Assembly (NCBI RefSeq): GCF_003337555.1
Contig: NZ_QPJK01000009.1
Coordinates: 62,001 to 126,000, forward strand
Direction: 5' to 3'
Length of the DNA stretch: 64,000 bases
Origin: Pseudorhodoferax soli
Lineage (GTDB): Bacteria; Pseudomonadota; Gammaproteobacteria; Burkholderiales; Burkholderiaceae_C
Below, piece by piece: positions 17,269-37,044 of the stretch. Made by a program: the position numbers and the translations under genes. Position 1 is the stretch's first letter. Every line of letters begins with the position of its first letter. The notes beneath the pieces were generated by a model. That model was not told the origin of the DNA. It saw only the letters and a list, made by a program, of their open reading frames with translations, and ran no database searches.

Positions 17269-17293
17269 CCGGTTCGTTTTGCGGATACTCCCC

Positions 17294-18364
17294 ATGATTC
17301 TTGTCACCGGCGGCGCCGGCTTCATCGGCACCAACTTCGTGCTGGACTGGATTGCCAGCGTTGGCGAACCCGTCCTGAACCTGGACAAGCTCACCTACGC
17401 GGGCAATCTGGAGAACCTGGCCAGCCTGGCCGGTGACGCACGGCACCGGTTCGTGCAGGGTGACATCGGAGACACGGCGCTGGTTGGCCGCCTGCTGGCC
17501 GAGAACGAGGTCCGCGCTGTCGTGAACTTCGCGGCCGAATCGCATGTGGACCGTTCCATCCATGGCCCGGCCGCCTTCGTCGAGACCAATGTGGTCGGTA
17601 CCTTCGGCCTGCTGGAGGCCGTGCGCGCCTATTGGGGGGCACTGCCGGCCGAGCGCAAGTCGGCTTTCCGTTTTCTGCATGTGTCCACCGATGAGGTCTA
17701 CGGCTCCCTGGATGCACAAGCGCCAGCCTTCACCGAGCAGCACCGGTACGAGCCGAACAGCCCGTATTCGGCCAGCAAGGCTGCCAGCGATCACTTGGTA
17801 CGTGCCTACCACCACACCTATGGTCTCCCGGTGGTCACCACCAACTGCAGCAACAATTACGGTCCGTTTCATTTCCCCGAGAAGCTGATCCCGCTGATGA
17901 TCGTCAATGCACTCGCTGGCAAACCGCTGCCGGTGTATGGGGACGGGCAGCAGGTGCGGGACTGGCTCTACGTCGGTGACCACTGCAGCGCCATCCGCCG
18001 CGTGCTGGAGGCCGGCCAGCTCGGCGAGACCTACAACGTGGGCGGTTGGAACGAGAAGCCCAATCTGGAGATCGTGCGCACGGTCTGTGCATTGCTGGAC
18101 GAGAAGCGGCCGCGTGTTGACGGCAAGTCGTATGCCGAGCAGATCGCCTATGTGACCGACCGGCCCGGGCACGACCGACGCTACGCCATCGACGCCCGGA
18201 AGATCGAGCGCGAACTCGGCTGGAAGCCGGCCGAGACCTTCGATACCGGCATCCGCAAAACGGTGGAGTGGTACCTGGACCACGCCGATTGGGTGGCGCG
18301 CGTGCAGAGCGGCGCGTACCGCGAATGGTTGTCCACCAACTACGGCGAACGAGAGAGCGCATGA
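17294..18364 (+). CDS. rfbB: dTDP-glucose 4,6-dehydratase
   Basis: Second enzyme of dTDP-L-rhamnose synthesis; converts dTDP-glucose to dTDP-4-keto-6-deoxyglucose with bound NAD. It has 356 residues, the usual length. Visible motifs are [12 protein letters not shown], the [11 protein letters not shown] block with Thr-Asp-Glu catalytic residues, and [15 protein letters not shown] (YxxxK). The start at 17294 gives MILVTGG directly. Its stop overlaps the rfbD start by four bases. It opens the O-polysaccharide locus. Confidence 0.96.
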
Positions 18365-19269
18365 AGATCCTGCTGCTGGGCAAGGGTGGCCAGGTTGGCT
18401 GGGAGTTGCAGCGCAGCCTTGCGCCGCTGGGCGAACTGGTGGCGGTGGATTTCGACAGCACCGATCTGTGCGGCGACCTCAGCAAACCCGAAGAGTTGGC
18501 CGCGACGGTGCGCCGTGTTGCGCCGACCGTCATCGTCAACGCCGCCGCCCACACGGCAGTGGACAAGGCCGAGAGCGAGCCTGAGTTCGCCCGCACGTTG
18601 AACGCGACGGCCGTGGGCGTGCTGGCGCGCGAGGCGCAGGCACTCGGTGCCTGGATGGTCCATTACTCGACCGACTACGTCTTCAACGGCAGCGGCAGCG
18701 CACCCTGGAGCGAAGACAGCCCGACCGGCCCTCTGTCGGTCTACGGCCGTACCAAGCTGGAAGGTGAACAACTGCTGCAGCAGCATTGCGCCCGGCATCT
18801 GATCTTTCGCACCAGTTGGGTCTACGCCGCGCGCGGCCAGAACTTCGCCAAGACCATGTTGCGGCTGGCGGCAGAGCGTGATCGGCTGACCGTGGTGGAT
18901 GACCAGTTCGGGGCGCCGACCGGAGCGGAACTGCTGGCCGACGTGACGGCCCTGGCCTTGCGCCGTGTCTTGTCTCCTGGTGGCGACCCGCTGGCTGGCC
19001 TGTACCACTTGGTGGCCGGCGGCGAGACATCCTGGCACGGCTATGCGCGCTTCGTGATCGACTTCGCCGAGCAGCGCGGGCTCGCGCTCAAGGCAGTCGG
19101 CGAGGCGGTGCAAGCCGTTCCATCGAGCGCGTTCAAGGTTGCGGCGCCGCGCCCCGGCAACAGCCGCTTGAACACGCAAAAGCTGCGAGACACCTTTGGT
19201 CTGATGCTGCCGCACTGGCAGGCCGGCGTGGGCCGCATGCTCACCGAAACCCTGGAACGCTCCGCATGA
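18361..19269 (+). CDS. rfbD: dTDP-4-dehydrorhamnose reductase
   Basis: Last enzyme of dTDP-L-rhamnose synthesis; reduces dTDP-4-keto-L-rhamnose with NAD(P)H. 302 residues. It shows the RmlD pattern: [40 protein letters not shown] and [11 protein letters not shown] (YxxxK). It overlaps rfbB and rfbA by four bases each, so translation is coupled. The gene order B-D-A-C is common in beta- and gamma-proteobacteria. Confidence 0.95.
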
Positions 19270-20153
19270 CGACAAATCGCAAGGGCATCATCCTGGCTGG
19301 CGGATCTGGTACGCGGCTGCACCCGGCAACGCTGGCGATCAGCAAGCAACTGCTGCCGGTATATGACAAGCCAATGATCTACTACCCGCTGAGCACCCTG
19401 ATGCTGGCGGGGATTCGAGAGATTCTGGTGATCAGCACGCCGCAGGACACTCCGCGGTTCCAGCAGTTGCTTGGGGATGGAAGCCAATGGGGGCTGAACC
19501 TGCAGTATGCGGTGCAGCCGAGTCCGGATGGACTCGCGCAGGCGTTTCTGGTCGGCGAGGCATTCCTGAGTGGGGCCCCGAGCACGTTGGTGTTGGGCGA
19601 CAACATCTTCCATGGCCACGACTTTCAGGATCTGCTGGAAAGCGCGAGCCGGCGTACGGACGGGGCGAGTGTTTTCGCCTACCACGTGCACGATCCGGAG
19701 CGCTATGGCGTGGCTCAGTTCAATGGCGAAGGCAAAGTCCTCTCGCTGGAAGAAAAGCCGCGGGAGCCGAAGTCGAACTATGCGGTGACGGGGTTGTATT
19801 TCTATGACGGGCGCGCGCCGGAACTGGCCCGGCAACTCAAACCCTCGGCGCGCGGGGAACTGGAGATCACCGACCTGAACCGGCTCTACCTCGATGAAGG
19901 CAAGCTCGATGTCGAGATCATGGGCAGAGGCTATGCCTGGCTAGACACCGGCACGCACGAAAGCCTGCTGGAAGCCAGCCAGTTCATCGCCACCATCGAG
20001 CACCGGCAGGGCCTGAAGGTGGCGTGTCCCGAAGAGATTGCTTTTCGCCAGGGGTGGGTCGACGCCGCGCAGTTGGAGCGGCTGGCGGCTCCTCTGCTCA
20101 AGGGAGGCTACGGGCAGTACCTGCTGCGTCTATTGAAGGAACAGGTGTTTTGA
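19266..20153 (+). CDS. rfbA: Glucose-1-phosphate thymidylyltransferase
   Basis: First enzyme of dTDP-L-rhamnose synthesis; joins dTTP and glucose-1-phosphate. 295 residues, normal length. The nucleotide-binding signature is [14 protein letters not shown], followed by [32 protein letters not shown] and [20 protein letters not shown]. These place it in the RmlA class. It overlaps the neighbours at both ends. Rhamnose itself normally inhibits this enzyme class through dTDP-rhamnose. Confidence 0.96.
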
Positions 20154-20704
20154 TGAAGGTGACGCGACTGGCGATTCCCGATGTCGTGCTGATCGAGCCC
20201 AAGGTGTTCGGCGATGCGCGTGGCTTCTTCTACGAAAGCTTCAACGCCGAAGCCTTCCGCGCAGCGACCGGAATCGATCTGGAATTCGTCCAGGACAACC
20301 ATAGCCGTAGCACGAAGGGCGTGCTGCGCGGGCTCCACTATCAGCTGCCGCCGCATGCCCAGGGCAAGCTGGTGCGCGTGGTGCGCGGTGCGGTGTTCGA
20401 TGTCGCGGTCGACATCCGTGCGTCGTCTCCGAGCTTCGGGAAATGGGTGGGCGCGGAGTTGACAGAGGAGAACCGCCACCAACTCTGGGTGCCACCCGGT
20501 TTTGCGCATGGGTTCCTGGTGCTGAGCGACACCGCCGACTTTCTCTACAAGACGACTGAGTACTACGCGGCAACGCACGAGCGTTGCATTGCGTGGAACG
20601 ACCCGACGCTCGCGGTCCATTGGCCGCAGTCTGACGGGACACCGCAACTGTCGGGCAAGGACCAGCAGGGGCTGCCGTTCGTCCGGGCCGAGGTCTTTTC
20701 TTGA
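20153..20704 (+). CDS. rfbC: dTDP-4-dehydrorhamnose 3,5-epimerase
   Basis: Third enzyme of dTDP-L-rhamnose synthesis; inverts C3 and C5 of the 4-keto sugar. 183 residues with the cupin-fold RmlC marks: DARGFFYESFN, FVQDNHSRSTKGVLRGLHYQ with the catalytic His, and VPPGFAHGFLVLSD. It starts one base inside the rfbA stop (TGATG). Its stop overlaps the start of the ABC permease gene. This ties rhamnose supply to export of the polysaccharide. Confidence 0.95.
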   Translation: MKVTRLAIPDVVLIEPKVFGDARGFFYESFNAEAFRAATGIDLEFVQDNHSRSTKGVLRGLHYQLPPHAQGKLVRVVRGAVFDVAVDIRASSPSFGKWVGAELTEENRHQLWVPPGFAHGFLVLSDTADFLYKTTEYYAATHERCIAWNDPTLAVHWPQSDGTPQLSGKDQQGLPFVRAEVFS

Positions 20705-21519
20705 TGCTGGCAGCGAGTGCCCCGACCGCCGCCATCCAATCCTTGTGGGTACATCGGTCACTGATCAGCCAGTTGGTTCGGCGTGAAGTCATCGGCCGCT
20801 ACGCCGGCTCCTTCCTTGGCATCGTTTGGTCTTTCATCAATCCGCTCTTGATGCTGACGATCTACACCTTCGTGTTCGGTGTGGTCTTCAAATCCCGATG
20901 GCGCGCGGCTTCCACTGATCCGCTGGAGTTCGCCGTCGTGATGTTCGGCGGGCTCATCATCCACTCGATGGTGGCGGAGTGCCTGCAGCGCGCGCCGACG
21001 CTGATCGTTGGCAATGCCAACCTCGTCAAGAAGATCGTCTTCCCGCTGGAAACCTTGGCCTGGGTGTCCGTAGGCACGGCGCTGTTCCATTTCCTCATCG
21101 CGCTACTGATCTTCGCAGGTGCTCTGTTGGTATGGCAGGGCAGCATCCCCTGGTCCTTTTTGCTTGTTCCGGTCCTCATATCTCCGCTGGCCCTGATGAC
21201 TGTTGGCCTGGTCTGGATCGTGTCCTCTCTGGGCGTCTACCTGCGCGACATAGGTCAGTTGATGGGCATCGTGACTGCGCTGTTGATGTTTCTTGCGCCT
21301 GTCTTCTATCCGCTCCATTCTGTGCCTGAAGGTTTGGCGCAGTACCTGTACTTCAACCCCATCACGTTCATCCTGGAGCAGGTGCGCAATGCTGCAATCT
21401 GGGGTGAGCCGGTGAACTGGCTCGGCTGGGCGGCCTACTGGCTGGTGGCCTACGCAGTGGCTTGGCTGGGATGGCTCTGGTTCGCACGTGTGCGCAAGGG
21501 GTTCGCGGATGTCCTCTGA
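20704..21519 (+). CDS. wzm: Polysaccharide ABC exporter, membrane subunit (Wzm type)
   Basis: Inner-membrane permease of 271 residues with six predicted membrane segments. The N-terminal RREVIGRYAGSFLGIVWSFINPLLMLTIYTFVFG is typical of ABC-2 permeases that export O-antigen or capsule. ANLVKKIVFPLE and LGVYLRDIGQLM are further family blocks. It pairs with the next gene to move lipid-linked polysaccharide across the inner membrane. The start codon overlaps the rfbC stop by one base, and the next gene begins 11 bases before its end. A chain made in the cytoplasm, rather than by Wzy in the periplasm, is implied. Confidence 0.92.
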   Translation: MLAASAPTAAIQSLWVHRSLISQLVRREVIGRYAGSFLGIVWSFINPLLMLTIYTFVFGVVFKSRWRAASTDPLEFAVVMFGGLIIHSMVAECLQRAPTLIVGNANLVKKIVFPLETLAWVSVGTALFHFLIALLIFAGALLVWQGSIPWSFLLVPVLISPLALMTVGLVWIVSSLGVYLRDIGQLMGIVTALLMFLAPVFYPLHSVPEGLAQYLYFNPITFILEQVRNAAIWGEPVNWLGWAAYWLVAYAVAWLGWLWFARVRKGFADVL

Positions 21520-22858
21520 CGATGTTGCGGTCCGTGTCGAGCGCCTGAGCAAGTGCTACCAGATTTATGAGCGCCCCAGCGATCGACTGAAGTCGTTTCT
21601 GATGCCGCGCGTGCGGCGCTGGGCTGGGCAGCCGCAGAAGGCGTATTGCCGCGAATTCTGGGCATTGCGCGATGTGTCCTTCGACGTCGCGCGTGGCGAG
21701 ACAGTGGGCATCCTAGGCCGCAATGGCGCAGGCAAGTCCACTTTGCTGCAGCTCGTCTGCGGCACGCTGTCGCCAACCGGCGGTACCGTCGAGACCCGCG
21801 GGCGGGTTGCTGCACTGCTGGAGCTCGGGTCCGGATTCAACCCCGATTTCACCGGGCGCGACAACGTCTACATGAACGCCGCCCTGCTCGGGTTGACCAA
21901 GCAGGAAACGGACGCTCGCTACGACGCGATCGTCGGGTTCGCCGACATTGGCGATTTCGTCGACCAGCCCGTCAAGACCTACTCCAGCGGCATGATGGTG
22001 CGGCTGGCATTCGCCGTGCAGGCTCAGGTCGAGCCCGACATCCTCATCGTCGACGAAGCCCTCGCCGTTGGCGATGCGAAGTTCCAGGCGCGCTGCTTTG
22101 AACGCTTGCGCCAGCTCAAGGAGAACGGCACCAGCATCCTGCTCGTGACGCACTCCACGGAGCAGATCGTGACCCATTGCTCGCGTGCCATCCTGCTGAG
22201 CGATGGCGGGGTGCTGGATGCCGGCGAGCCGCGCCGTGTGGCCAACCGCTACCTGGACCTGCTGTTCGGCAGGGAGCGCACGGTGAAGCCGTCCGCCGCG
22301 CCTTTGCCCCCCGCGGATGCGCCTGCGGCTACAGCGCGCGCGGCGTTTCCGCTGAGCTTCCATGAGGATGTGTTCGCGCAGCACGCCGGCTACAACCCGC
22401 ACGAGTACCGGTGGGGCGATGGTTCAGCGGCCATTCTGGACTTCTATCTTGCGGCCGATGACACGCTCTACCCCGCCGTGTTGTCCAGCGGGCAATCGAT
22501 CCGCCTGGGTGTTTCGATCCGCTTTCAGCGCGATCTGATTCGCCCCATTCTGGGCGTGACCATCAAGACTAAGGAAGGCGTCACCGTCTATGGCGCCAAT
22601 TCGGAAACACTGGACGCGCAGGCGCTGAAGGTGCTCGGCCAGTCCGACTCCCTTGTGGCGGTCGAGATGGCCTTCACTTGCCGGCTGGCGCAGGGCGACT
22701 ATTTCATCTCCCTCGGCGTTGCGACCCGCGCTGGCGAAGACATCGTGCCGCATGACCGCCGCTACGACTCCATCCATCTTCAGGTCGGCCCAGACGCACG
22801 GTTCTTCGGACTGGCGAATCTGGACTTGAGCTTCAGGGAAATTTCGGCTTCTTCATGA
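21509..22858 (+). CDS. wzt: Polysaccharide ABC exporter, ATPase with C-terminal carbohydrate-binding-type domain (Wzt type)
   Basis: ATPase of 449 residues. The nucleotide-binding domain has Walker [10 protein letters not shown] (70-78), signature [12 protein letters not shown] (158-169) and Walker [11 protein letters not shown] (177-186). After a Pro/Ala-rich linker (about 245-275) comes a beta-rich domain of about 170 residues, including [14 protein letters not shown] and [20 protein letters not shown]. This matches the Wzt C-terminal domain that recognises the modified non-reducing end of finished O-antigen in E. coli O8/O9a. Such a two-domain Wzt implies a capped chain, which agrees with the WbdD-like protein encoded next. 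Confidence 0.92.
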
Positions 22859-25800
22859 ACGATCAGCTTCTCAGCGCGGGCTATGCGCACGATCCGGCCG
22901 CCCAGGTGTGGGCGCGTCCGGGATATGGCGGCATCGCCTACAGCGATGGCGACGAGGTCGAGCAGCGCATCGGTTCGATTGTCAGGAACGCGGGCGACCT
23001 CACCGTGCTGTCGCCGGAACTGCGTGCGTACTGTACGGATTGGCCGTCGCTGTACCACCTGACCAGCGCGCGCGCCAACATTCTTCGACCATTTCACGCG
23101 ACGCTGCACGGCGCGCAGGTGCTGGAGATCGGCGCCGGTTGCGGCGCCATTACGCGCTACCTCGGCGAGTCCGGCGCGCACGTGTTGGCTCTCGAAGGCT
23201 CGCCGCGTCGTGCCGCGATTGCACGCGCCCGTTCACGCGACCTGCCGAATGTCGATGTGGTGGCCGACAGTTTCGAGCAGTTCTCCACTTCGCAGCGTTT
23301 CGACGTCGTGACGCTTATCGGCGTGCTGGAGTACGCCAACCGTTTCGTCGCAGGGGAGTCCCCTGCGCAGGTGATGCTGCAGCGCGCGCGCGCGCTGCTC
23401 AAGCCTCAGGGGCGGCTCATCATCGCGATCGAGAACCAGCTGGGCCTCAAGTACTTTGCGGCGGCGCCGGAAGACCATTTCGGCGTGCCCATGTACGGGC
23501 TGGAAGACCGCTATCGGGCCGATGAGGCCCAGACGTTCGGCCGCGCTGCACTGCAAGCCATGCTGCATGGTGCAGGCTTCACGCAGGTCCAGTGCATGGC
23601 GCCCTTTCCGGACTACAAGCTGCCGATGTCCATCGTCACGGAAGAAGGCTTTCGCGCCGGGGACTTCGATGCCACCGCATTCGCTTGGCAGAGCGCGCGC
23701 CGCGATCCGCAACTGCCGGAGGTGCTGGCCTTTTCGCCGGAGCTTGTCTGGCCGGTACTGGGCCGCAATGGGCTGGCGCTGGATTTGGCAAACTCATTCC
23801 TGTTCGTGGCGGCGCAAGCACCCACTGCGCCCGATACGGCGAACGTACTGGCCTACCACTACAGCACCGATCGCGCCAAGCTGTATTGCAAGGAGACGCG
23901 GTTCGTGCGTACGGACGGCAACGCGATCAAGTTGGAGTACCAGCGCCTGAGTCCAGGCGAGCACCCAGCGTCGACACATGTGCAACATACGCTGGCGGCT
24001 TCCGCAGCCTATGTCCATGGCGAACCTCTGTCGCTGGCCTTGCTCCGGACCGTGTCGACCGATGGTTGGGCGCTTCAGCAAGTTGGCGCCTTTCTGCGTG
24101 ATTACCTGCGCATCGTGGCCGATCTGGCGGCGGGCGTGGAAGTGCCCGAAGACCCCTGGGCCGCCGACACGCAACTGCCAGGGGTCTTCTTCGATCTTGT
24201 ACCGCAGAACATCATCGTCGAGCCGCGAGGTCAGGGCTTCGCAGTGATCGACCGCGAATGGGTCTTGCGGGACGGCATCTCCGTGGGCTGGCTGCTGTTC
24301 CGGACATTGCTGCTGCTCATCAATTCCGTTTCCCGTTTCGGGCGCTGTACCGACGCCGATGAGTGGACGCGCAAGAACTTCATCCTGGCGGCCTTGCAGT
24401 CCGCAGGCCTGCATGTGGACGCGCATGACGTCGACAATTACGCGCGCGAGGAGATCCGCCTACAGGCGGAGCTGACGGGGCGCGCGGTCGCGGATCTCCA
24501 GGATTGGGGCGCCATCGCAAAATTGCCGATGGAGAACCTGTCACTGGCCGTGCAGCGGCGCAGCGCCCAGGTGGGTCAACTCGCCGCAGTGCATGAAGGA
24601 CTTCAGAAGGAGTTCGACGAGCGCACGAACTGGGCCTTGCAACTGGACGCGGCCTTGGCGAAGGCACAGCAGGACTACCAGGCGCTGGACCAAGCGACGG
24701 TTCAAGAGCGCCATGAGCGCGAGCAAGGGCAGAACGAACTCAACTTGCTTCGGGCCACTTTGGCGGAGTTGCAGTTGCAGTCCGCTCAGATGCAGCGTGA
24801 GCGCGATGATGTCCAGACCGAATGCACATCCCTGCAGGAGCGGCTGGTACATGCCGACCAGGAACGAGGCCAGCTGCACGAGGGCCTGGCTTCCCTGCGC
24901 GCAGTTGTTGAAGACGTGCAGTCACAGCTGGAGCAGACGCAGCGCGAGCGCGATGAAGCACACACGCAGGTGCGCTCCATCTCCTCGACGCGGGATGACA
25001 TCCTCGTGGCGAAAGGGGAGGCGGAGCGGCGCTATGCGGAAGTCGAGGCCAAGCGTGCCGCGCTGGCCGGATCCTTGTCGTGGCGCGTGACCAAGCCTTT
25101 GCGCATGCTGGGGCGGATAGCGCGAGGGGAATGGTCGACGATCCGCACGCTCGTGGCACCGGAGATCGTGCGGCTGGCGCGGGTCGGGTACAAGCGCGCA
25201 CCGATTCCCACGCATATGAAGGACAAGGCCGCCGCGCTAGCCTACCGCGTGGCCGGCCCGATGTTCACGGGCGTGGTTCACTATGAGATCTGGCGTCGGC
25301 AGCGCGACAACGCTCCGCTCGCTCCGGTAGGCGCCGGCCCGGTCGCCGCAGCCGACTTTGCCGAGGTGTTGTCGTCGCTGCGTTTTCCTGTCGTCGCCAA
25401 GCCGGATGTCTGCATCGTCATTCCGACCTACGGCAATCTGGAGCACACACTGGCCTGCTTGCGTTCCATTGCCATTCATATGCCGCGCGCGTCCGTTGAG
25501 GTCTTGGTTGCCGAAGATGCATCCGGCGACCCGCAGATTGATTTGATTCGCCGCATCCCTGGCCTGCGCTACATCAGGCACCCGGAGAATCTGGGGTTCC
25601 TGCGGTCGTGCAACGCTGCCGTCAAGCAAGCCAAAGGTCGCTACATCTACTTGCTCAACAACGACACGGAAGTGACTGCGGGCTGGCTCGACAGCATGCT
25701 GGCCCTGTTCGACAAGCATCCGGATTGTGGGATGGTCGGCTCCAAGCTCGTCTATCCCGACGGGCGTCTGCAGGAGGCTGGGGGCATTCTGTGGCGCGAC

Positions 25801-27297
25801 GGCTCAGCCTGGAACTGGGGGCGGCTCGACGATCCTTCCCGTCCTGTCTACAACTATGTGAAAGAGGCCGACTATTGCTCGGGCGCTTCCCTCATGATTC
25901 CAACCGCGCTTTGGCAACAGTTGGGGGGCTTCGACGAGCACTATCTTCCGGCCTACTACGAGGACACGGATCTGGCATTTCGGGTCCGTGCGGCAGGCAG
26001 GACGGTGATGTACCAGCCCCAGTCGGTCGTCATCCACTACGAAGGAATTTCCCACGGCACGGACACTGGTAGCGGCATCAAAGCGCACCAGGTTGAGAAC
26101 CAGAAGAAGTTCTATGTGCGCTGGAAGGAAACCCTGGAGCGCGAGCACTTAGACAACGGCGTCAACCCATTCCGGGCGCATGACCGCTCCATCGGCCAAC
26201 GCACGATTCTTGTTGTCGACCACTACGTACCGCAGCCCGACCGCGATGCCGGTTCGCGCAGCATCTGGTGCTTCCTGCGCGAGTTCAAGGCGATGGGTTT
26301 GAACGTGAAGTTCTGGCCCGCGAACCATTGGCACGATACGCAGTACGCCCCTTTGCTAGAGCAGGAAGGCATCGAGGTGCTGTACGGCAATGAATTTGTC
26401 GGACGGTATGAGGAGTGGATTGCCAACCATGGGTCCGCTTTGGACTACGTCTTGTTGAATCGCCCTCACATTGCGATAGAGCATTGGGAAGCTGTGAGAA
26501 AGCATACCCACGCGAAGCTGTTTTACTACGGGCACGATCTGCACTATGCGCGTTTGAAGTTGCAGTATGAGAAAACAGGCGACAAGAACGTTCTACGAGA
26601 ATCGGAACTCATTCGATCCGTAGAGGAGACCTTGTGGCGGAACTCGGATGTTATTTACTATCCATCCCCAACTGAGACCGATGCCGTCCTGAAGTATTTG
26701 CCCAATGCAATTGCTAGAACAGTGCCTCTTTATTACTTTGATAAAGAGGATCTATCGATCATTGCGCCGAGACGTGAAAAGACCGATTTGCTTTTTGTCG
26801 CGGGATTTGGGCATCCGCCGAACGTGGATGCGGCCAAATGGCTGGTGAAGGAGATATTCCCGCTTCTGCAAGCAAACGTAGCAGGCGCCCGACTTTTTCT
26901 GGTCGGCTCCAACCCGACGGACGAGGTGAAGGCCTTGGCAAGCGATAGTATTACCGTGACTGGTCACGTGACGGACTCCGAGTTGAGCGGTTTCTATCGA
27001 ACGGCTGGAGTTGCTGTGGTGCCTCTGCGATTTGGCGCGGGAGTGAAGGGCAAGGTTCTTGAAGCCCTTCACCACGGCATTCCACTGGTGACAACGACTG
27101 TCGGCGTTCAAGGCCTACCAGGTCTCGCCGATGCCATCAGCGTACACGACGACGCCGCAGGTGTCGCGACAGCCATTCGGCATTTGATGCAAAACGAAGA
27201 GGCTTGGAGTGAGGCGTCTGCTGGTGGGCGCGAATATGTCGCGCTGGGATTCTCCAGGTCGGCCTTGCGATCGGTGTTCAATCTGGACATGAAATAA
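22855..27297 (+). CDS. Giant methyltransferase / kinase-like / coiled-coil / GT2 / GT4 fusion (WbdD-like chain terminator joined to glycosyltransferases)
   Basis: Cytosolic protein of 1480 residues with five regions. Residues 1-320: SAM methyltransferase (VLEIGAGCG at 89-97, then LALEG). Residues 330-530: kinase-like fold with K346 in YCKET, D447 and N452 in DLVPQN, and D466 in IDREW, matching the catalytic and metal residues of small-molecule kinases. Residues 565-735: Gln/Glu/Arg-rich coiled coil. Residues 850-1100: GT2 glycosyltransferase ([14 protein letters not shown] at 935-939, GGFDEHY, YYEDTDL). Residues 1115-1480: GT4 glycosyltransferase ([19 protein letters not shown] with E1403). 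Methyltransferase-kinase-coiled coil is the order of E. coli WbdD, which caps O9a chains and sets their length. The 3' end falls to lower GC. Overlaps wzt by four bases. Confidence 0.85.
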
Positions 27298-27298
27298 A

Positions 27299-29179
27299 AT
27301 GCCCTGGAACTCAAATTGCCGATTGACAGGGGGCGGTGGTTTTCTGTTTTTCGGACTGACCTTGATCGTGGCCGTGCTGACGTATGCGTTGGCGCTGATA
27401 TTTATATTTCCCGGCAAGTTTCAGCCTATTGCTATCCCCCATAGCGATATTTATATGCCGTTGGCAATAGCAAACAGCCCGTTCAATTGGGGCATGCCTC
27501 GCCCGACGGGGAGTATTATTGATGCATTTCGCGGCCGCTTCGGCCTCGAATTTTCGGTGCTGTTCCCGGTCTGTGTGGCTTTCGCCAACTGTGTGGGGAC
27601 CGTGCTTTTGGTGAGGAAAATATTCTTTTCGGATTTTGATATCCGCAAAAATATACTATCTGTTTTTCTTGGCCTTGTCGTTTATTTTTGGCTGATCTTC
27701 ACGCATCGCTACTTTTATATTTTTGCGGGATGGGATGCCTACGCGCAGTATTCTTATTTCTTTTTGCTTCTGTCCGTTGCTTGGTTGAGGCTGTTCTGGA
27801 AGAGATTTTTCGTTGGTGTTCTTGGCTTCTTTTTGAGTGCGTGCGTGGCGTTCTTGAGTAAAGAGACCTATGCATTGAGCTTCTTTGTGGTCCTTCCTTT
27901 CGTTGTGCGGGGAATTTTTGTATCTGGTTCCGCGCACGTCTCAGGCCACACGATCCGAGACAGGCTCGTCCCGCGAGTCGTGGTTGTTTCGGTCACGTCG
28001 CTCTTCGCGTTCCTGGTTGCACTGGGGGTCAATCGCTATCTGAATTCCCCCTTTACTGGCCACAACCTCGCCGTCAACGGAGCGTACCAGATCTCTCTGT
28101 CCCCCATGTCCATCATGGGGGAGTGGGTGCGGTACGCTAAAGACGGGTTTAATGTGGCTCTCGGTACGGCACTTTTTGTTGTTGCGGGGTTTTTTCTTCT
28201 GCGCGCCGGAAATCGACGAAATGCACTTCCACTGATTGTCCCTGTTATTGCGGGAGGTCTGTCGTGGTTGCCGAACTCGTTGCTCCCGAATCATCACTTC
28301 GCGCAATATAGTTTCACCGGTAGCTATCTTTATTATTTGCCTTTTCTCTTTATCGTTGCAGGATGGCCGCAGTACCTCCGATCAATGCGCAATTTGCGTA
28401 TGGGCGTCGCAATTTTTCTTGTTGCCTTGCCGTTCTTGAATCTGAAACTGTTCAGAAGCGACATTGTCCAGTTTTATACTGTTCAGATGGACCGACAGAT
28501 CGAATACAACGACGCTGTCAAGAGTATCGCTCGAAATCCAGCGGCTACTGAGGGGTCGGCGCGCAATCTGCTGGTTGGGATTGCACCGCCTTTCAATCCG
28601 TTCATTTATCCTTCGGCATTTCTGAAGGGGTATTTCCCGAATGGGATTTCCCTTGATGTTGTAGGCTACTCTTTGCCGCCTGGCGAGATAGTTCGAGCCG
28701 CTGCAGCTAATGTGTCAGTGCGACTCCTGGATGCGTCAGAAGTCGATCTCGATATGTACAAGACAATCTGGAGCGTTGGGTTGGATGGCGGCGGGTTTAA
28801 AAAGTCCACGCCACAAGACTACATCCACGCCGCTCAGGTGTCTGGTATTTCGATAAAGGATCTGGTTTTATATCCTGAGGTTGGGCGGATCTTTCTCGGT
28901 CGCCCTTCTCTTTCGGAAAAAGAATTTCTCGATTGTGGCTTGGCTTTCAAGGCGTACGGTGCCAATGAAAAGTCGTTGGTTTGCTTTGATAGAAGTATTC
29001 AAATGGCTCCAAATAATCCTTACCCTTATTTTTTCTATGCATTGGCGTTGGAGCCGAGTGGTGACATAAAGGCCGCGGTGATATACATGGAGAAAGCAAA
29101 CTCGCTGGAACCGGAGAGCGCGAGGAATCCGATGTTTCAAGCGGAGTTGCGCCGCTTGAAAAAAGGCCTGACTAATTGA
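27299..29179 (+). CDS. Polytopic membrane protein with C-terminal TPR-like tail, GT-C-type
   Basis: Inner-membrane protein of 626 residues. About ten or more hydrophobic segments fill residues 12-410. A soluble part follows, and residues 540-620 contain two TPR-like helices pairs (KSLVCFDRSIQMAPNNPYPYFFYALAL, AVIYMEKANSLEPES). The acidic residue D50 in the first long loop (PHSDIY) sits where GT-C glycosyltransferases carry their catalytic acid. I recognise no specific family, but the architecture suits a periplasmic sugar transferase or modifying enzyme that uses lipid-linked sugar. The ATG begins one base after the large fusion gene. GC is much lower than in the flanks. Confidence 0.6.
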   Translation: MPWNSNCRLTGGGGFLFFGLTLIVAVLTYALALIFIFPGKFQPIAIPHSDIYMPLAIANSPFNWGMPRPTGSIIDAFRGRFGLEFSVLFPVCVAFANCVGTVLLVRKIFFSDFDIRKNILSVFLGLVVYFWLIFTHRYFYIFAGWDAYAQYSYFFLLLSVAWLRLFWKRFFVGVLGFFLSACVAFLSKETYALSFFVVLPFVVRGIFVSGSAHVSGHTIRDRLVPRVVVVSVTSLFAFLVALGVNRYLNSPFTGHNLAVNGAYQISLSPMSIMGEWVRYAKDGFNVALGTALFVVAGFFLLRAGNRRNALPLIVPVIAGGLSWLPNSLLPNHHFAQYSFTGSYLYYLPFLFIVAGWPQYLRSMRNLRMGVAIFLVALPFLNLKLFRSDIVQFYTVQMDRQIEYNDAVKSIARNPAATEGSARNLLVGIAPPFNPFIYPSAFLKGYFPNGISLDVVGYSLPPGEIVRAAAANVSVRLLDASEVDLDMYKTIWSVGLDGGGFKKSTPQDYIHAAQVSGISIKDLVLYPEVGRIFLGRPSLSEKEFLDCGLAFKAYGANEKSLVCFDRSIQMAPNNPYPYFFYALALEPSGDIKAAVIYMEKANSLEPESARNPMFQAELRRLKKGLTN

Positions 29180-29192
29180 AGAGTAGGCGGTT

Positions 29193-32000
29193 ATGACGCT
29201 CAATGAATTTCTGCGCAGGGATGGGAACAACCTGGATATCTTGAGGCTGATTGCTGCAGTGGGGGTGATTGTCGGCCACGCATACGCAGTGTCGCCTCAG
29301 CCGCCTCTCCAGGATGGGGTCATGACGCTACTGCACTTTGACTATTCGGGAGGAATGGCGGTAAAGTTCTTCTTTCTGCTAAGCGGGATTCTTGTTGCCA
29401 ATAGTCTTATTGAGAAGCCATTTTTTTTCCAGTATTTGACTCTTCGTGTGTTCAGGTTGTTTCCTGCATTGGTCGTTTGTTTGTTCGTTACGACCTTTGT
29501 AGTCGGTCCCGTTTTATCTACAAGCACTGTAGCCACGTATTTTGGCGATCCTGCTGTTTATGTATACGCCTTGAGGAATTTGGCGTTGTCACCGCAGTGG
29601 GAACTGCCAGGTGTGTTCAAGCAAAATCCCTCGAATGTCGTCAATGGGTCGCTGTGGACCTTGCCAGTAGAGTTTTTTTGCTATTTGATGCTCGGAGTAG
29701 TGGGGGGTCTGGGTCTCCTGCGAAATAAGTTCTTCGCAGGGTTTGTTTTTTTTGCATTGGCCGCTTTTTTGACGTACAGGCCAACTGCAATGCAGTGGTT
29801 TTCATTGCCTACCGAAGCCTGGATGTTCCCTCTGTTCTTTTGTATGGGTGGATTGCTGGCTGTTTTGAAGGAGTACGTCTGGATCAATTTTCAGACGGTT
29901 TTTTGTCTATTCCTGGCTGCGGCGCTGATGCACGCCACTCCGCTTTATCCGGCTTTGATGAGTCTGGCAATATTCATTTGCGCCTTATATTTTGTTTCAT
30001 TCAAAGTGGTTCGAGAAATTAAGCTGCCGGGCGACTTTTCGTACGGGATTTACCTGTACGGTTTTGTGTGCCAGCAGGTTTTCAAGAGCATTTGGCCGGA
30101 GCAGGGTGTTCATTGGAATCAATTTGGTGGTGTGGTGTTTGCCACTATATTGGCTGTTTTTTCGTGGTATTGCATTGAAGCACCCTCGATGAGGGCAGGT
30201 CGGAGGTTCGCTGCGAATTTGGGCGGCGGACGGGCCGTGGACCAGGTGCGCTCTTTGTATCTATTTGTGAGTTTGCCAAAGACGCGGCTTAACAAAGTGC
30301 AATATCTCCAGCGGATTGTCGTTGTCATTGTTATTGGCGCGCTCGTATTGTTGGCATGGGTTTTCTACATGCAGATTCTTCGCCCCAACATTGCATTCAT
30401 GGACTCGCTGAGGTTTCTGACGTACTTTGACGAGTCCGAAAGAGGGATCAGCTCGGTCTGGGCAAGCTGGAATCAAGGCCAGCATCGAGGTCTGCTTCCC
30501 CAATTCGTCGTCTATCTCAATGCCAAATACTTCAACTACCAGATCTATGGCTTTGCCTTGCTTTCGGGGGCGGTGTTGGCGGTGTCTTATCTAGTGGTTC
30601 TGTTTGAGTTCCGGCGCGAGCTTGGCGCTGGGCGGTTGGAGTATGTCGGGGTGTTCGGCTGCCTGGCGATTGCCCTGTTCAGTTTTTCCAATTGGGAGCT
30701 ATATTCTCTGGATCTCGGGCCCGCACTCTTCTTGAAGAATCTGGCGTTCGTGGTCTATTGGATCTGCATGGCCAAGGTGATTGCTGGCAATCAAAGCCGC
30801 TTTTGCAATCTGGTGACCATCATGGGTGGCCCGTTGGTGGTGTTGCTCGTCGCCTACGGGTGGGCATTGCCGTTCGTTGTTGCGTGCTTCCTCGCGGCCG
30901 GTGCCGTCGGTGGCTGGCATGGTATTAGGCGCAATCGCCAGGTCTGGATCCCGCTGGCGTTGTTGGTCGCCAGTCTGGTTCTTTATGTTATAGGCGGGTC
31001 CATCTTTCCACCTGCGCCGCGGAGCCTTCCACAGGGTGATGCAAGTGTGGCCAACTTCCTCTGGTCTATCCCTCTTGCCTTGAGCTCGATATTCGTTGGG
31101 CATGAAAGCTCGGCGATAAATGGGTTTATTGGCCTGATTCGTTGGGGTGGTGTGGCTTGTTGCGTGGTTTGTATCTTTTTCATCGTGCGGGACCTGCGTG
31201 CGCCCGAGGGTTTGCATGCGCGATTTTTCTTTCCGTTGGCACTTCTGTTCTATGCGCTGGTGGATCTGTTGCTAATGGCGGTCACGAGAGGGCGATTCGA
31301 ACCTGCGGCCACAATGGTCTCCCGTTATTTTTCTGATTTTTGCTACGTGCTTGTTGGGATTATTTTTTATGAATATCTGAAGGGTTCTTCACGAGTATGC
31401 GGGGGGGCGTCGTTGCCCGCAAGGCGCCCCATGTTGCGGGTGGCCCCCGTTTGGGGAATGGCGATTTTTTTCATCATCGGTCAGGTATGGACGGGTGTGG
31501 ATGAGTGGCGCAAGGCCCCTTATCGACACGCAGCATTCGACGCGATGGGCCAGGCAACAATTCGCGCTGCTGAAGGAGCGCGAGACATCAAGGTGCTTCA
31601 GGCGCCGATCGATGTGGCGATCGCCGGTGCGCGCGTGCAGCGAGACTACGGATTCGGTGTGTTCGCAGATGCGGCGTGCACATACAAGCCAGATTCGGAT
31701 GGCTGGATCGGAAGTTCGTATCAGTTCCTGCTCAAGAACTGCGGCGAGGCTCCAAGGTTTCAGTTCTATTTGCCACAGAACTTTCCGGATCGACGAATCG
31801 TGATTGCGATTGACGGCAGGGCGCGGGATTATGTGTTGCGCGCCGGTGAGGTGACGACACTGTCCGTTTTGGCGGATGTCGAAGGAACACATGCAGTCCA
31901 GATCAAAATTCCTATCACATCGCGGGCGGCGGATATCGATCCGTCTGCATCCGACGTGCGGGAGTTGGGCGCAATTTTTTCATTTGCTTCCACACAGTAG
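29193..32000 (+). CDS. Acyltransferase-3 domain fused to a second polytopic (GT-C-like) domain
   Basis: Inner-membrane protein of 935 residues. Residues 10-355 form an OafA-type acyltransferase 3 domain: [16 protein letters not shown] with the conserved R18 and H29, [10 protein letters not shown] and the [10 protein letters not shown] block. These enzymes acetylate surface polysaccharide from the periplasmic side. Residues 375-790 add about ten further membrane segments (for example [20 protein letters not shown]), reminiscent of the GT-C or Wzy-like membrane proteins in such loci. A soluble C-terminal domain of about 130 residues ends the chain. The common acyltransferase-3 fusion partner is SGNH, so this partner is unusual. 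Low GC. Confidence 0.7.
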
Positions 32001-32016
32001 AGGCGAGGAGTTTGTA

Positions 32017-32787
32017 ATGAAGGCGGTTATTTTGGCCGGTGGTTTGGGGACCCGTATATCGGAGGAGACGCATCTGCGTCCCAAGCCCATGATCGAGATC
32101 GGCGGCAAGCCGATCCTGTGGCACATCATGAAGATTTATTCCTCCTATGGAATCCATGACTTCGTGATCTGCTGCGGATACAAGGGCTACGTCATCAAGG
32201 AGTACTTCGCCAATTACTTCCTGCACATGTCGGATGTCACGTTCGACATGCAGCACAACAAGATGGAGGTGCACCAGCGGTACGCCGAGCCCTGGCGTGT
32301 GACGCTGGTGGATACCGGAGACGAAACCATGACGGGCGGCCGTCTGCGGCGCGTGGCCGAGCACGTTCGCGGCGAAGAGGCGTTCTGCTTCACATATGGC
32401 GACGGCGTGAGCGACATCAACATCCGAGATTTGATCGAGTTCCACCGTGCGAGCCAGCTCAAGGCGACATTGGCCGCGACCCTGCCACCGGGCCGCTTCG
32501 GCGCGCTCGATCTGCAGGACAAGAAGGTCATGGCGTTCAAGGAGAAGCCAAAGGGTGACGGCGGGCTCATCAACGGGGGCTTCTTCGTGCTGTCGCCCGA
32601 GGTGTTGGACTACATCACGGCCGACGACACTGTCTGGGAGCGTGAGCCTTTGGAGCGGCTGGCGCGGGAAGGGCAGTTGGGCGCGTACGAGCACACTGGT
32701 TTCTGGCAGCCGATGGACACGCTGCGCGACAAGACCCATCTGGAAGAGCTGTGGCAGAGCGGCGCTGCGCCCTGGAAGGTCTGGTAA
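32017..32787 (+). CDS. rfbF: Glucose-1-phosphate cytidylyltransferase
   Basis: First step of CDP-3,6-dideoxyhexose synthesis; makes CDP-glucose from CTP and glucose-1-phosphate. 256 residues with the signature [37 protein letters not shown] and the diagnostic [11 protein letters not shown] and GRFGALDL blocks. A GAGGCGAGGAG ribosome site lies nine bases before the ATG. GC content returns to the genomic level at this gene. Its stop overlaps the start of rfbG. Confidence 0.95.
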
Positions 32788-33872
32788 TGGCGGACTCCAA
32801 TTTCTGGGCCGGCAAGCGGGTGTTCCTGACGGGACACACGGGCTTCAAGGGCGGCTGGCTTGCGTTGTGGCTCGAGCGCCTGGGCGCCGAGGTGACGGGT
32901 TATGCGCTGGCCCCGTCAACCGAGCCGAGTCTGCACGGGCTCTCTGCGGGATGGAGCCGAGTGCGTTCCGTCATCGCCGACATCCGCGATCTGGAGCGCT
33001 TGAAGGCGGCCATCGGGGCTTGCCGGCCCGAGATCGTCCTGCACCTGGCCGCGCAGCCGTTGGTGCGTCGCTCTTATGTGGACCCGGTGGAGACCTACTC
33101 GACGAACGTCATGGGGACCGTGAACCTGCTCGAGGCGGTCCGTTGCGTCGGAGGCGTACGCGCCGTCGTGGTGGTGACCAGCGACAAGTGCTACGAGAAC
33201 CAGGAATGGCAATGGGGCTACCGCGAAAACGAACCCATGGGGGGGTACGACCCTTACAGCAACAGCAAGGGGTGTGCGGAGTTGGTGACGGCGTCCTTCC
33301 GGTCGTCGTTCTTCAACCCGGCGACCCATGCCGAACATGGCGTGGCCGTGGCCACCGGCCGGGCTGGCAACGTCATCGGCGGTGGCGACTGGTCGGACGA
33401 CCGGCTGGTGCCGGACCTGCTGCGCGCTTTCTCCTCAGGTGGCACGGCAGACATCCGCAATCCGCATTCCGTGCGGCCATGGCAGCACGTTCTCGAACCG
33501 CTGAGGGGCTATATGATGCTCGCCCAAAAACTGCACACCAACGGGCCGGACTGGGGTGGTGCCTGGAACTTCGGTCCCAACGATGCCGATACCAAGCCGG
33601 TGTCCTGGATCGCGGATGAACTGGTGTCGCGGTGGGGGCCCGGCGCGGCGTGGAGCACCGCTGCACAGGCTGGGCAGCCGCACGAAGCGCGCTGGCTCAA
33701 GCTGGACTGCTCCAAGGCACGCCAGACGCTGGGCTGGATCCCACGCTGGAACCTGAAGCAAAGCCTCGGTGCCATCGTCGAATGGCAGCAGGCCTGGCTG
33801 GGCGGGGCCGACATGGCGGCCTTCACCATCGGCCAGATCGAACATTACGAAAGCACAACCCAAGATGACTGA
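32787..33872 (+). CDS. rfbG: CDP-glucose 4,6-dehydratase
   Basis: Second step of the CDP-sugar route; forms CDP-4-keto-6-deoxyglucose. 361 residues of the extended short-chain dehydrogenase type: [55 protein letters not shown] (YxxxK) and [26 protein letters not shown] in place of GGAGFIG is typical of RfbG. It overlaps rfbF by one base and rfbH by eight bases, so the three are translated together. Confidence 0.95.
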
Positions 33873-35196
33873 AATTTCCTTCAAGCAGAACGAGCTGCGC
33901 AAAAAGATCCAGGCCCTGGTGGCCGAATACGGCGAACTGGCCAGCGCGCCCAAGCCCTTCCTGCCGGGCGAGACCCTCATCCCGCCTTCGGGCAAGGTGG
34001 TCGGCGCGCCCGAGATGCAGTTGATGGTCGATGCGTCGCTCGATGCGTGGCTCACGACCGGCCGGTTCAACACCATCTTCGAAAGCCGGCTGGCCCAGTA
34101 CCTCGGCGTCAAGCACCTGATGACGGTCAACTCGGGTTCGTCGGCGAATCTCGTCGCTTTTTCGACCCTGACGTCGCCCAAGCTCGGGGACCGCGCCATC
34201 CTGCCGGGCGACGAGGTGATCGGCGTGGCCGCCGGCTTCCCGACGACCGTCAATCCGATCATCCAGTGCGGCGCCGTGCCGGTGTTCGTGGACGTGCACA
34301 TCCCCACGTACAACATCGACGTCGAGCAACTGGAGGCGGCCATCGGTCCCCGCACGAAGGCCATCATGCTGGCGCATACGCTGGGCAATCCGTTCAACCT
34401 CAAGGCCATCAAGGCGGCTTGCGAAAAGCACAACCTGTGGCTGGTGGAAGACTGCTGCGATGCGCTCGGTTCGCGCTACGACGGCAAGCTGGTCGGCACC
34501 TTCGGCGACATCGGCACCTTGAGCTTCTACCCCGCACACCACATCACGATGGGCGAGGGCGGTGCAGTGTTCACCAACAACGACGATCTGCGCCTGATCG
34601 CCGAATCGATCCGCGATTGGGGCCGCGACTGCTATTGCCCGCCCGGCAAGGACAACACCTGCGGCAAGCGCTTCTGCTGGAAGCTGGGCAACCTGCCGGA
34701 AGGCTACGACCACAAGTACACGTACTCGCACCTCGGCTACAACCTGAAGATCACCGACATGCAGGCCGCTTGCGCCCTGGCGCAGCTCGACCGGCTCGAC
34801 GGCTTCGTGCAGGCGCGCAAGGACAACTTCGCCTACCTGACGGAACGTCTGCGCAGCTGCGAGGAGTTCCTGATCCTGCCCGAGGCCACGCCAGGCTCGG
34901 AGCCTTCGTGGTTCGGATTCCCCATCACCATCCGTGAAGAGGCCAACACGCGCCGCGTGGACCTCCTGCAGTACCTGGACCAGCACAAGGTCGGCACCCG
35001 TCTTCTGTTCGCCGGCAACCTGCTGCGCCAGCCCTACATGATCGGACGCAACTACCGGGTGGTCGGCGAACTCAAGAATGCCGACCGCATCATGAACGAC
35101 ACGTTCTGGCTGGGCGTCTACCCGGGACTGTCGGAGTCGATGCTCGACTACATGGTCGAATGCGTCGAAACCTATCTTGGCTTGAGGTTTGACTGA
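33865..35196 (+). CDS. rfbH: CDP-6-deoxy-4-keto-glucose 3-dehydrase (E1, PMP and [2Fe-2S] enzyme)
   Basis: Removes the C3 hydroxyl of CDP-4-keto-6-deoxyglucose, with a separate reductase supplying electrons. 443 residues of aminotransferase fold. The usual pyridoxal-binding Lys is replaced by His225 in [13 protein letters not shown], the defining change of this enzyme. The iron-sulfur ligands follow the known spacing exactly: C198-X57-C256-X1-C258-X7-C266. No partner reductase (RfbI/AscD-like) is in the window; it must be supplied from elsewhere. The product, CDP-4-keto-3,6-dideoxyglucose, is the branch point for abequose, paratose, ascarylose and the branched sugar yersiniose. Confidence 0.95.
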
Positions 35197-36232
35197 GCAA
35201 CTGCCCCCGGTCTCGTCCGATGACCTCGACGAGATCCTGCGCCATACGTCAGCCGATGTATGGGCAGGGCTGCGGCATGCATCCATCTTCCTGACGGGAG
35301 GGACGGGCTTCGTCGGCAAATGGCTGCTCGAAAGCCTGGTGCGTGCAAACCGCGAACGGGACCTGGGGCTCGTCGTCACGGTTCTGACACGCGATCCCGC
35401 TGCCTTTCAGCAGGCCTGCCCGCATCTGGCCCAGGCGGCCATCGTCAAGTTGGTGCGTGGCGATGTCGAAACCTTTGCGTTTCCTTCCGGGCAATTCAGC
35501 CATGTGGTGCATGCGGCCTTGCCGGTGGCGCCGCCGCACGCGGACAGCGCAGCGTTGGAGGCCGTCGCGGTCGCCGGAGCCCAACGGGTCTGCGCGTTCG
35601 CCCATGCCGCGGGCGCGCGTCGACTCCTGCATGTGAGTTCCGGCGCGGTCTACGGACCGCAGGATGCTGGCCATCCGCTGGTGGAAGACGCGGTCTGGTC
35701 GGGTGGCGATGCGGTCAACGCCTACACCCGAGCCAAGCGCCAGGCCGAGCGGGTCGTTCGAACCGAAGGCCCGGCCGAAACGGTGATCGCGCGGTGCTTC
35801 GCCTTCGTCGGGCCCTGGCTGCAGCCGTCCAGTGGCTCGGCTGCCGCCGATTTCATTGCGCGCGCCGCGCATGGCCGCGAGATCGTGGTCAGCGGCACCG
35901 GCACGGCCGTGCGCAGCTACCAGTACGCCGGCGACATGGCGCGCTGGCTGTTGACCTGTCTGGTGTCGGGGCGGGCCGGTGAGGCCTACAACGTCGGCAG
36001 CGACGTGGCGACCAGCATTGCGGAACTGGCACATGCGGTCGCCGGCCAAGCGGGCAGCGCCATGCCGGTCCGTGTGCTCGGCGGCGCGGCGCCAGGCTTG
36101 GCCGGTGCCCGCTATGTGCCGGACACCGGTCGTGCCCGGCGCGAACTGGGCCTGACCAACGTGGTCGGTCTGCAGGACGGCATCCGCAGAACTTTGGCAT
36201 GGCATGCCTGTGCGGAACTTATCCGAGATTGA
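35189..36232 (+). CDS. Extended short-chain NAD(P)-dependent epimerase/reductase of the CDP-sugar route
   Basis: Cytosolic enzyme of 347 residues. The cofactor motif is [17 protein letters not shown], preceded by about 30 extra residues. The catalytic set is [11 protein letters not shown] and [10 protein letters not shown] (YxxxK). [14 protein letters not shown] and EAYNVGSD are C-terminal marks of the family. Position right after rfbFGH suggests reduction or epimerisation of CDP-4-keto-3,6-dideoxyglucose or of a derivative, like RfbJ or RfbS. TTG at 35189 overlaps the rfbH stop by eight bases and is the only suitable start I see. The exact sugar is unknown. Confidence 0.8.
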
Positions 36233-36235
36233 GCA

Positions 36236-37042
36236 ATGAAACCTTTGTTCCAGCCTTCCGCTTTGCGTCGGACCGTGGTCGAGATGGCCTACGCCGGCAA
36301 CGCTGTCCATCTCGGATGCGCGTTCTCCATTGTTGAACTCGTGTCGGCGCTCTATGCGCGCCAGATGCGCTACGACCTGTCCGATCCGGATGATCCGGGG
36401 CGCGACTACCTGGTCCTGAGCAAAGGCCATGGCGTGATGGCGCAATATGCCTGTCTCCACCAGCTCGGCTGGATCGAGCGCCAGGACATCGACGGCTATT
36501 TCCACGATGGCTCCCGGCTCAAGGGGTTGTCGGATGCGCACGTGCCCGGCTGCGAAGTCACGTCCGGCTCGCTGGGGCACGGCCTGTCGGTGGGGGTGGG
36601 CCTGGCACTCGGCGCCAGCCGCCGCAAGGCCGGCCAGAACTGCTATGTCATCGTCGGCGATGGCGAGATGAACGAAGGCCCTGTCTGGGAAGGCATGCTG
36701 TTCGCTGCCCACGCCAAGCTGGACAACCTGATGGTGATCGTCGACGCCAATGGCTTCCAGGCGATGGGCACGACGGACGAGGTCATGGCGCTGGGCAGCC
36801 TCCGCGCGAAGTTCTCCGCGTTCGATTTCGATGTTCTGGAGGTGGATGGCCACGACCTGGCCGCCATTTCCGCTGCCATGGACCAATTGATGACGACGAA
36901 GAACGGCAAGCCCAAGGCACTCGTGGCCAAAACGGTGAAGGGCAAAGGCGTTTCTTACATGGAAAACATCAACGCGTGGCACTACTCACGCTTGAATGCG
37001 GTGCAGTACGAACAGGCGCTGCGTGAACTGGGAGGGGCTTGA
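36236..37042 (+). CDS. Split transketolase, N-terminal (diphosphate-binding) subunit
   Basis: Protein of 268 residues corresponding to the first half of transketolase. It holds LSKGHG, SGSLGHGLSVGVGLALG and the thiamine-diphosphate motif GDG at 141-143 through VDAN at 169-172. Transketolase moves a two-carbon unit between sugars. Its place between CDP-sugar genes and glycosyltransferase genes, with a matching C-terminal subunit next, points to a dedicated enzyme and not central metabolism. I infer two-carbon extension of the 4-keto sugar to make a branched-chain sugar. The start lies four bases after the epimerase stop. Confidence 0.85.
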   Translation: MKPLFQPSALRRTVVEMAYAGNAVHLGCAFSIVELVSALYARQMRYDLSDPDDPGRDYLVLSKGHGVMAQYACLHQLGWIERQDIDGYFHDGSRLKGLSDAHVPGCEVTSGSLGHGLSVGVGLALGASRRKAGQNCYVIVGDGEMNEGPVWEGMLFAAHAKLDNLMVIVDANGFQAMGTTDEVMALGSLRAKFSAFDFDVLEVDGHDLAAISAAMDQLMTTKNGKPKALVAKTVKGKGVSYMENINAWHYSRLNAVQYEQALRELGGA

Positions 37043-37044
37043 CC

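Follow-up and report, generated by a model that had tools for sequence, protein, structure and literature searches.

Can the building of a polysaccharide chain, the measurement of its length and its capping be carried out by one polypeptide? This question is raised by a 1480-residue protein encoded in the window, by which we mean the whole stretch of 64,000 nucleotides of Pseudorhodoferax soli DNA analysed here. The gene lies directly downstream from the two genes of a glycan ABC exporter, and its product contains a methyltransferase, a kinase-like domain, a long coiled coil and two glycosyltransferases (GTs).

Organization of the fusion gene and its neighbours

The features of the locus are listed below.

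17279..20704, + strand: rmlB, rmlD, rmlA and rmlC, for dTDP-L-rhamnose supply (NCBIfam: dTDP_gluc_dehyt, rmlD and rmlA above cut-off, dTDP_sugar_isom E 4.7e-75)
20701..21519, + strand: wzm, membrane subunit of a glycan ABC exporter (Pfam ABC2_membrane, E 6e-26)
21488..22858, + strand: wzt, ATPase subunit with a C-terminal carbohydrate-binding domain (Pfam ABC_tran; Wzt_C at residues 306-444, E 1.3e-28)
22855..27297, + strand: 1480-residue fusion protein, single frame without internal stop
22855..23589, + strand: methyltransferase domain, about residues 1-245 (Pfam Methyltransf_12, E 7e-13)
23590..24528, + strand: divergent kinase-like domain, about residues 246-558 (conservation; local match to a Ser/Thr kinase profile)
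24529..25071, + strand: long coiled coil, about residues 559-739, the proposed ruler (AlphaFold2 helix; heptad period)
24811..24957, + strand: 49-residue coil segment, residues 653-701, absent from the sister protein (sole gap of the pairwise alignment under two gap scorings)
25072..25146, + strand: 11-residue motif (740-750) and amphipathic segment (747-764), the proposed membrane foot (likeness to a WbdD motif; hydrophobic moment)
25402..26184, + strand: GT2 module, residues 850-1110 (Pfam Glycos_transf_2, E 3.8e-19, 853-1018)
26185..27294, + strand: GT4 module, residues 1111-1480 (Pfam Glyco_trans_1_4, E 5e-23, 1311-1447)

The ATG of the fusion gene overlaps the wzt stop codon by 4 bases. 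A preliminary description of this DNA, made from the letters and their translations, had placed a methyltransferase motif at residues 89-97, a GT2 domain at 850-1100 and a GT4 domain at 1115-1480, all in one frame directly after wzm and a two-domain wzt. Frame and Pfam domains agree with this account: the motif VLEIGAGCG is found at 89-97, overlapped by a Pfam class I methyltransferase match at about residues 90-190, and both transferase matches fall within the domains described. The frame is beyond chance, since the N-terminal module occurs in frames of over 1300 codons in four of six genomes of the genus, the window's included, and a full-length relative exists.

The open frame, the order of the modules, the catalytic-type residues, the long helix and the neighbouring genes were confirmed as a real observation. 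The analysis supports a single chain that unites a capping module with a rod and transferases, the kinase-like domain lying between the methyltransferase and the coil.

Relationship to Klebsiella O7 ORF6 and other single-chain proteins

The closest described counterpart is ORF6 of Klebsiella pneumoniae O7 (MN173773.1), which, as presented in PMC11231755, carries in one chain a methyltransferase, an unannotated kinase (catalytic residue D441), a carbohydrate-binding module, a coiled coil and two GT2 modules. Full-length ORF6 phosphorylated a mimic of the repeat unit completely and methylated it partly; the D441A mutant showed no phosphorylation in vitro, and unexported polymer remained in vivo (PMC11231755). 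The same source reports that the O7 kinase is quite different from that of WbdD, that its nearest fold is the amicoumacin kinase AmiN, and that ORF6 orthologues are known both with and without GT modules.

The window protein likewise combines methyltransferase, kinase-like domain, coiled coil and two GTs in a single chain, and both proteins are encoded in clusters with wzm, wzt and rml genes. All seven residues that PMC11231755 names for the O7 terminator, in its SAM site and at its catalytic position (Y28, Y66, G91, G93, E112, Y158 and D441), correspond to Y29, Y67, G93, G95, E114, Y160 and D447 of the window protein (offsets of +1, +1, +2, +2, +2, +2 and +6), and each counterpart is invariant among the aligned relatives that cover its position. 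The two proteins differ in their transferases, GT2-GT2 in ORF6 and GT2-GT4 in the window protein, and O7 uses a separate ribofuranosyltransferase as well. They also differ between kinase and coil, where ORF6 has its carbohydrate-binding module, which PMC11231755 does not describe as essential; the window protein has no room for one, because the family profile extends as far as residue 562 and the helix already begins at 559. Module order and residue spacing thus suggest that the window protein belongs with the O7 ORF6 type.

WbbB of K. pneumoniae O12 and Raoultella terrigena also combines polymerase, terminator and ruler in a single polypeptide (PMC11231755, for O12); its terminator adds Kdo, whereas the N-terminal half of the window protein consists of a methyltransferase and a kinase-like domain. 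In E. coli O101 a methyltransferase with a coiled coil has been offered as a possible ruler (PMC13168486). The preliminary description had proposed that terminator, ruler and transferases are covalently joined here. The joining itself is seen in the chain, but the concept is not new, because O7 ORF6 and O12 WbbB are published cases. This kind of protein was described in 2024; what the present locus offers is a different pair of transferases and the absence of the extra binding module. Neither a GT2-GT4 version nor a protein of this kind in this genus was found in the literature searched. A single paper in that literature named both Pseudorhodoferax and O-antigen; judging by its entry, it is a dental-plaque metagenome study.

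A Pseudomonas asturiensis plasmid protein (WP_024686765.1, L076) has the same N-terminal module at 48% identity in a long chain with two GTs and, like the window protein, is encoded directly after wzt. Unlike the window protein, it has a GT2-GT2 pair and about 120 extra residues before the coil.

Comparison with WbdD

The N-terminal half had at first been described as WbdD-like. The window protein and WbdD of E. coli O9/O9a (K. pneumoniae O3) do share a methyltransferase, the D-N-D spacing of protein kinases, a coil, an SxSWRxT motif after the coil and an adjoining wzt. In the alignment of the kinase parts, D447, N452 and D466 fall on WbdD D351, N356 and D369; D351 was read off the alignment, and N356 and D369 are named as WbdD residues in PMC3482155. 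WbdD ends about 110 residues past the SxSWRxT motif, without transferases, and its polymerase WbdA is a separate protein, whereas the transferases of the window protein are in the same chain.

The description did not hold at the level of homology. Blastp of the whole protein against WbdD of E. coli HS (708 aa) gave, at E below 1, a match in the coil only (589-753 against 435-605, E 0.003). The same WbdD scored -1.3 bits against the HMM of the N-terminal family, and hhalign gave a probability of 79% over 38 columns for the methyltransferase parts and of 7.7% for the kinase parts. Direct homology to WbdD was therefore rejected for the kinase and is weak for the methyltransferase.

Proposed function of the fusion protein

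Taken together, the protein is probably a single-chain polymerase-terminator like ORF6 of K. pneumoniae O7, and its substrate would be a polysaccharide that Wzm/Wzt export. A lipid-linked chain would be extended by the two C-terminal modules, GT2 and GT4, which the amphipathic segment past the coil would keep at the membrane; the neighbouring rml genes would supply the rhamnose donor. Once the growing end could reach the distal tip of the coiled coil, it would be phosphorylated by the kinase, and the methyltransferase would then methylate the terminal phosphate; the capped end would be read by the C-terminal domain of Wzt and the chain exported. Both capping activities are attributed by analogy with the O7 protein, and the ruler action and membrane foot by analogy with WbdD. 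Rhamnose as the donor and lipopolysaccharide as the product would follow from the gene neighbourhood only.

The coiled-coil rod and the putative membrane foot

AlphaFold2 modelling of residues 541-852 (two sequences, monomer) yielded one helix at 559-756, with a mean pLDDT of 69.6 for the model. The pLDDT was 90 or higher in 115 of the 312 residues; block means were 91-96 from about 581 to 700, and values fell below 50 beyond about 738. Proline is absent from 561-739, and the best hydrophobic period of the coil is 3.50, with 20 of 1000 shuffles as strong. The coiled coil that had been proposed at about 565-735 is thus seen both in the model and in the periodicity. At 1.5 angstroms per residue, 180 coil residues would extend over ~270 angstroms; a distance of about 200 angstroms has been given for WbdD, in which the length of the coil alters the length of the O-chain (PMC5082667) and recruitment of the polymerase matters too (PMC11231755).

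Just past the coil, the window protein carries an 11-residue motif of the form SxSWRxTxPLR at 740, and WbdD carries SRSWRMT at 592. The segment 747-764 has a hydrophobic moment of 0.70, more than any other 18-residue stretch in the protein, and a net charge of +4; the strongest hydrophobic moment of WbdD is 0.76, at 619-636. By analogy, this amphipathic segment may be the membrane foot of the rod. The motif does not serve to mark the family: a search with one pattern gave 8 of 26 loci and a second pattern added L037 and L039, so that it is not universal. Nor is it specific to the terminator, because it is also present in the long GT proteins L043, L045 and L046, which lack this terminator; it is absent from L044.

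Natural variants in coil length

The window protein and its sister from P. aquiterrae (L035/L036) are identical at 1141 of 1431 aligned residues (80%). The sole gap between them comprises the 49 residues 653-701, or 7 heptads; it was unchanged with standard gap costs, and a QRERD-like stretch lies on either side of it, the two being exactly 49 residues apart. Identity by module is 80% for the methyltransferase, 79% for the kinase, 84% for the coil, 89% for the linker, 95% for GT2 and 65% for GT4. With a 49-residue difference in the rod and no other indel, the two proteins form a useful natural pair. Their GT4 modules have diverged and their neighbouring genes differ.

A second pair in the same genus, L105 and L106 (both with the N-terminal module and a GT4, the latter assigned by Pfam for L105), is 88% identical and shows a single gap of 21 residues, or 3 heptads, again in the coil. 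The span from the kinase motif to the anchor is 384 and 363 residues in L105 and L106, 275 in the window protein and 226 in its sister. The L105 coil has a period of 3.52, with 3 of 1000 shuffles as strong, and the heptad period of the sister's shorter coil is no better than shuffles (497 of 1000).

Gaps in multiples of seven were counted post hoc, in two pairs, both of which fit a rule of whole heptads. The rule is not general, because in another genus, in which nine genomes yielded eight module proteins, two of the eight spans differ by -1 and +11; the other six are equal, at 58-79% identity. We therefore put it forward only tentatively, and for this genus, that the builder-capper might evolve chain length by gain or loss of whole heptads in its built-in rod, each polypeptide fixing its own chain length. 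If so, related species carry rods differing by 49 and 21 residues, which by helix geometry would be about 74 and 32 angstroms. A single chain fixes the ratio of capper to builder, so chain length should track rod length more directly, and the natural length variants give the protein its value for testing the ruler model.

Alternatively, the coil could be a scaffold or an oligomerisation rod and chain length could be set otherwise, for example by export. We regard this as unlikely, while giving it some weight. The occurrence of the coil-end motif in terminator-free GT proteins would agree with it, as would the two deviating spans of the other genus and the lack of a heptad period above shuffles in the sister's coil. 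Against it stand the effect of coil length in WbdD, the confinement of the sole indel of two pairs to whole heptads within the coil, and the constancy of the span in most members of the other genus despite their sequence divergence. A ruler remains the preferred function of the rod.

Nature of the exported glycan

The rml genes stand in one run with wzm and with a wzt whose product has a Wzt_C domain, an arrangement known from O-antigen clusters and not exclusive to them. Among the 26 loci with the N-terminal module, a same-strand wzt lies at most 1.3 kb upstream in 16. The C-domain is BLAST-similar to that of the window Wzt in 15 of these neighbours; the sixteenth, that of the sister, has a Wzt_C domain by Pfam, which BLAST with the C-domain alone misses at E 1e-4. 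The 10 other loci showed no wzt on the same strand within 1.5 kb; some of them are near contig ends, and L089 and a few more hold little upstream sequence. In the sister genome an extra gene, with methyltransferase-like and transferase-like sequence as judged by eye, lies between wzt and the fusion gene. Because of this intervening gene and the divergent C-domain of its Wzt, the sister cap may differ from that of the window protein.

The product could also be another glycan exported by Wzm/Wzt, capsule-like or an exopolysaccharide, with the same capping logic. The presence of ORF6 homologues in an exopolysaccharide cluster of Gluconacetobacter diazotrophicus (PMC11231755) speaks for this; the rml-wzm-wzt run of the window, an arrangement of O-antigen type as in O7, speaks against it, and we consider it improbable. 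The O antigen of lipopolysaccharide is accordingly kept as the presumed product.

Conservation and relationships of the kinase-like domain

The alignment of the N-terminal module comprised 24 frames; one of them (L088, 407 aa) lacks the kinase region, and the other 23 include the window protein. The preliminary description had singled out K346, D447, N452 and D466 as kinase-like. The last three proved to be conserved: D447 and N452, together with E468 and W469, are retained in 23 of 23 sequences, and D466 in 22, the exception being a Glu in a Citrobacter protein. K346 did not share this conservation, being retained in 14 sequences and lost in 9, so some of these relatives may not phosphorylate.

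Residues 236-582 alone matched no Pfam family at E up to 10. A profile of 22 kinase-like domains was compared by hhalign with a template made from two Ser/Thr kinases of the same genome. The local match scored 36.9-37.1, at a probability of 54-56% with this template of only two sequences; the maxima in the controls were 20.4 for 60 column shuffles, 16.4 for the reversed profile and 18.4 for six unrelated families. This alignment places D447 and N452 on HxD...N, D466 on DFG and the sequence YVHGEPL on the stretch labelled as hinge. Ser/Thr kinases were favoured by two local settings; in global mode their score was 4.9, within the range of the controls (up to 6.3).

Profile comparison did not support a relationship to aminoglycoside phosphotransferases (APH): against 15 APH kinases the profile scored 14.2, and 19 of 60 shuffles scored as high. 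In a search of the PDB with a kinase profile of 12 sequences, the best of three matches was a choline kinase at E 0.57, which is not significant and aligns the same catalytic residues. The PDB was also searched with the N-terminal half as a whole; the best 60 of 70 and the best 60 of 131 matches are nearly all methyltransferases by name, and WbdD is absent from the matches listed. The AlphaFold2 model of residues 1-582 (two sequences) had a pLDDT of 33.7, too low to be of use. A kinase is thus suggested by the conserved residues D447, N452 and D466-x-E468-W469 together with the local Ser/Thr profile match.

That the kinase-like domain is inactive or merely binds the chain end, and that the cap is a plain methyl as in K. 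pneumoniae O5, whose chains end in methyl (PMC11231755), and E. coli O8, is quite improbable: the uneven retention of K346 and the occurrence next to wzt of L088, a methyltransferase without kinase region, would fit such a cap, but the window protein keeps all five nearly invariant residues of the family, and the O7 protein phosphorylates whereas its D441A mutant does not.

Distribution of the N-terminal module and its partners

Counting the window's genome each time, the N-terminal module was found in at least 8 of 299 genomes of the family (from 81 matching genomes), at least 11 of 300 of the order, in which G469 gave a weak partial match, and at least 13 of 369 of the class. These counts are lower bounds, two to four candidates having been scored per genome. 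Six loci on viral contigs, with short methyltransferase matches at 22-35% identity, were left out.

Behind the module, two of the eight family genomes (those of the window and the sister) have the GT2-GT4 pair, three have other transferases (assigned by Pfam in two; the third, L038, resembles L037) and three have nothing past the terminator. The fused relatives carry, by Pfam, GT2-GT2 (L076, L089), WbsX with a GT2 fragment (L037), RgpF with GT2 (L042), GT4-type transferases (L078, L105) or GT2 (L079). The GT2-GT4 half, in turn, follows a different methyltransferase in L043 (by Pfam) and L044 (alike by eye), and is also found in frames of 744-745 aa (L009, L011), too short to hold the terminator. 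The terminator half and the transferase half are thus each paired with different partners from genome to genome.

Genes downstream from the fusion gene

The gene coding for the 1480-residue fusion of a methyltransferase, a kinase-like domain, a coiled coil, GT2 and GT4 is followed in the window by these genes:

27299-29179, 626-aa protein, directly 3' of the fusion gene
29193-32000, acyltransferase-3 protein of 935 aa, in the same gene run as the fusion
Within 31876-37962, two enzymes scoring over the NCBIfam cut-off, namely glucose-1-phosphate cytidylyltransferase and CDP-glucose 4,6-dehydratase, together with a DegT aminotransferase-family gene, an epimerase gene and a transketolase divided between two genes

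Pfam and NCBIfam scans of the 626-aa protein assigned no family at E 0.001; weak TPR-like matches were found close to its end. The acyltransferase-3 protein is a candidate chain acylase, and the genes at 31876-37962 look like a set supplying a branched or dideoxy CDP sugar.

Sister cluster and other relatives

The gene surroundings of the fusion homologue in the P. aquiterrae cluster (L036) differ from those in the window, and the C-terminal domain of its Wzt is divergent. The following features were located in this cluster and in two loci of relatives carrying the N-terminal methyltransferase and kinase-like module (terminator) or part of it:

L036 5550-7166, frame of 538 aa that separates wzt from the fusion homologue
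L036 11499-13534, DegT gene and GT2 gene after the fusion homologue
L088 7413-8636, 407-aa relative, overlapping wzt
L084 7522-10590, terminator-bearing relative

The 407-aa protein of L088 contains the methyltransferase and lacks the kinase region, making it a candidate methyl-only terminator. In the L084 protein the terminator is preceded by approximately 330 residues of other sequence, and its kinase half is, as judged by eye, broken up by a long repeat-containing insertion. The relatives encoded in L037 and L038 are 1783 aa and 1760 aa long, respectively; a Pfam scan of the L037 protein shows a WbsX-type transferase module joined to the terminator.
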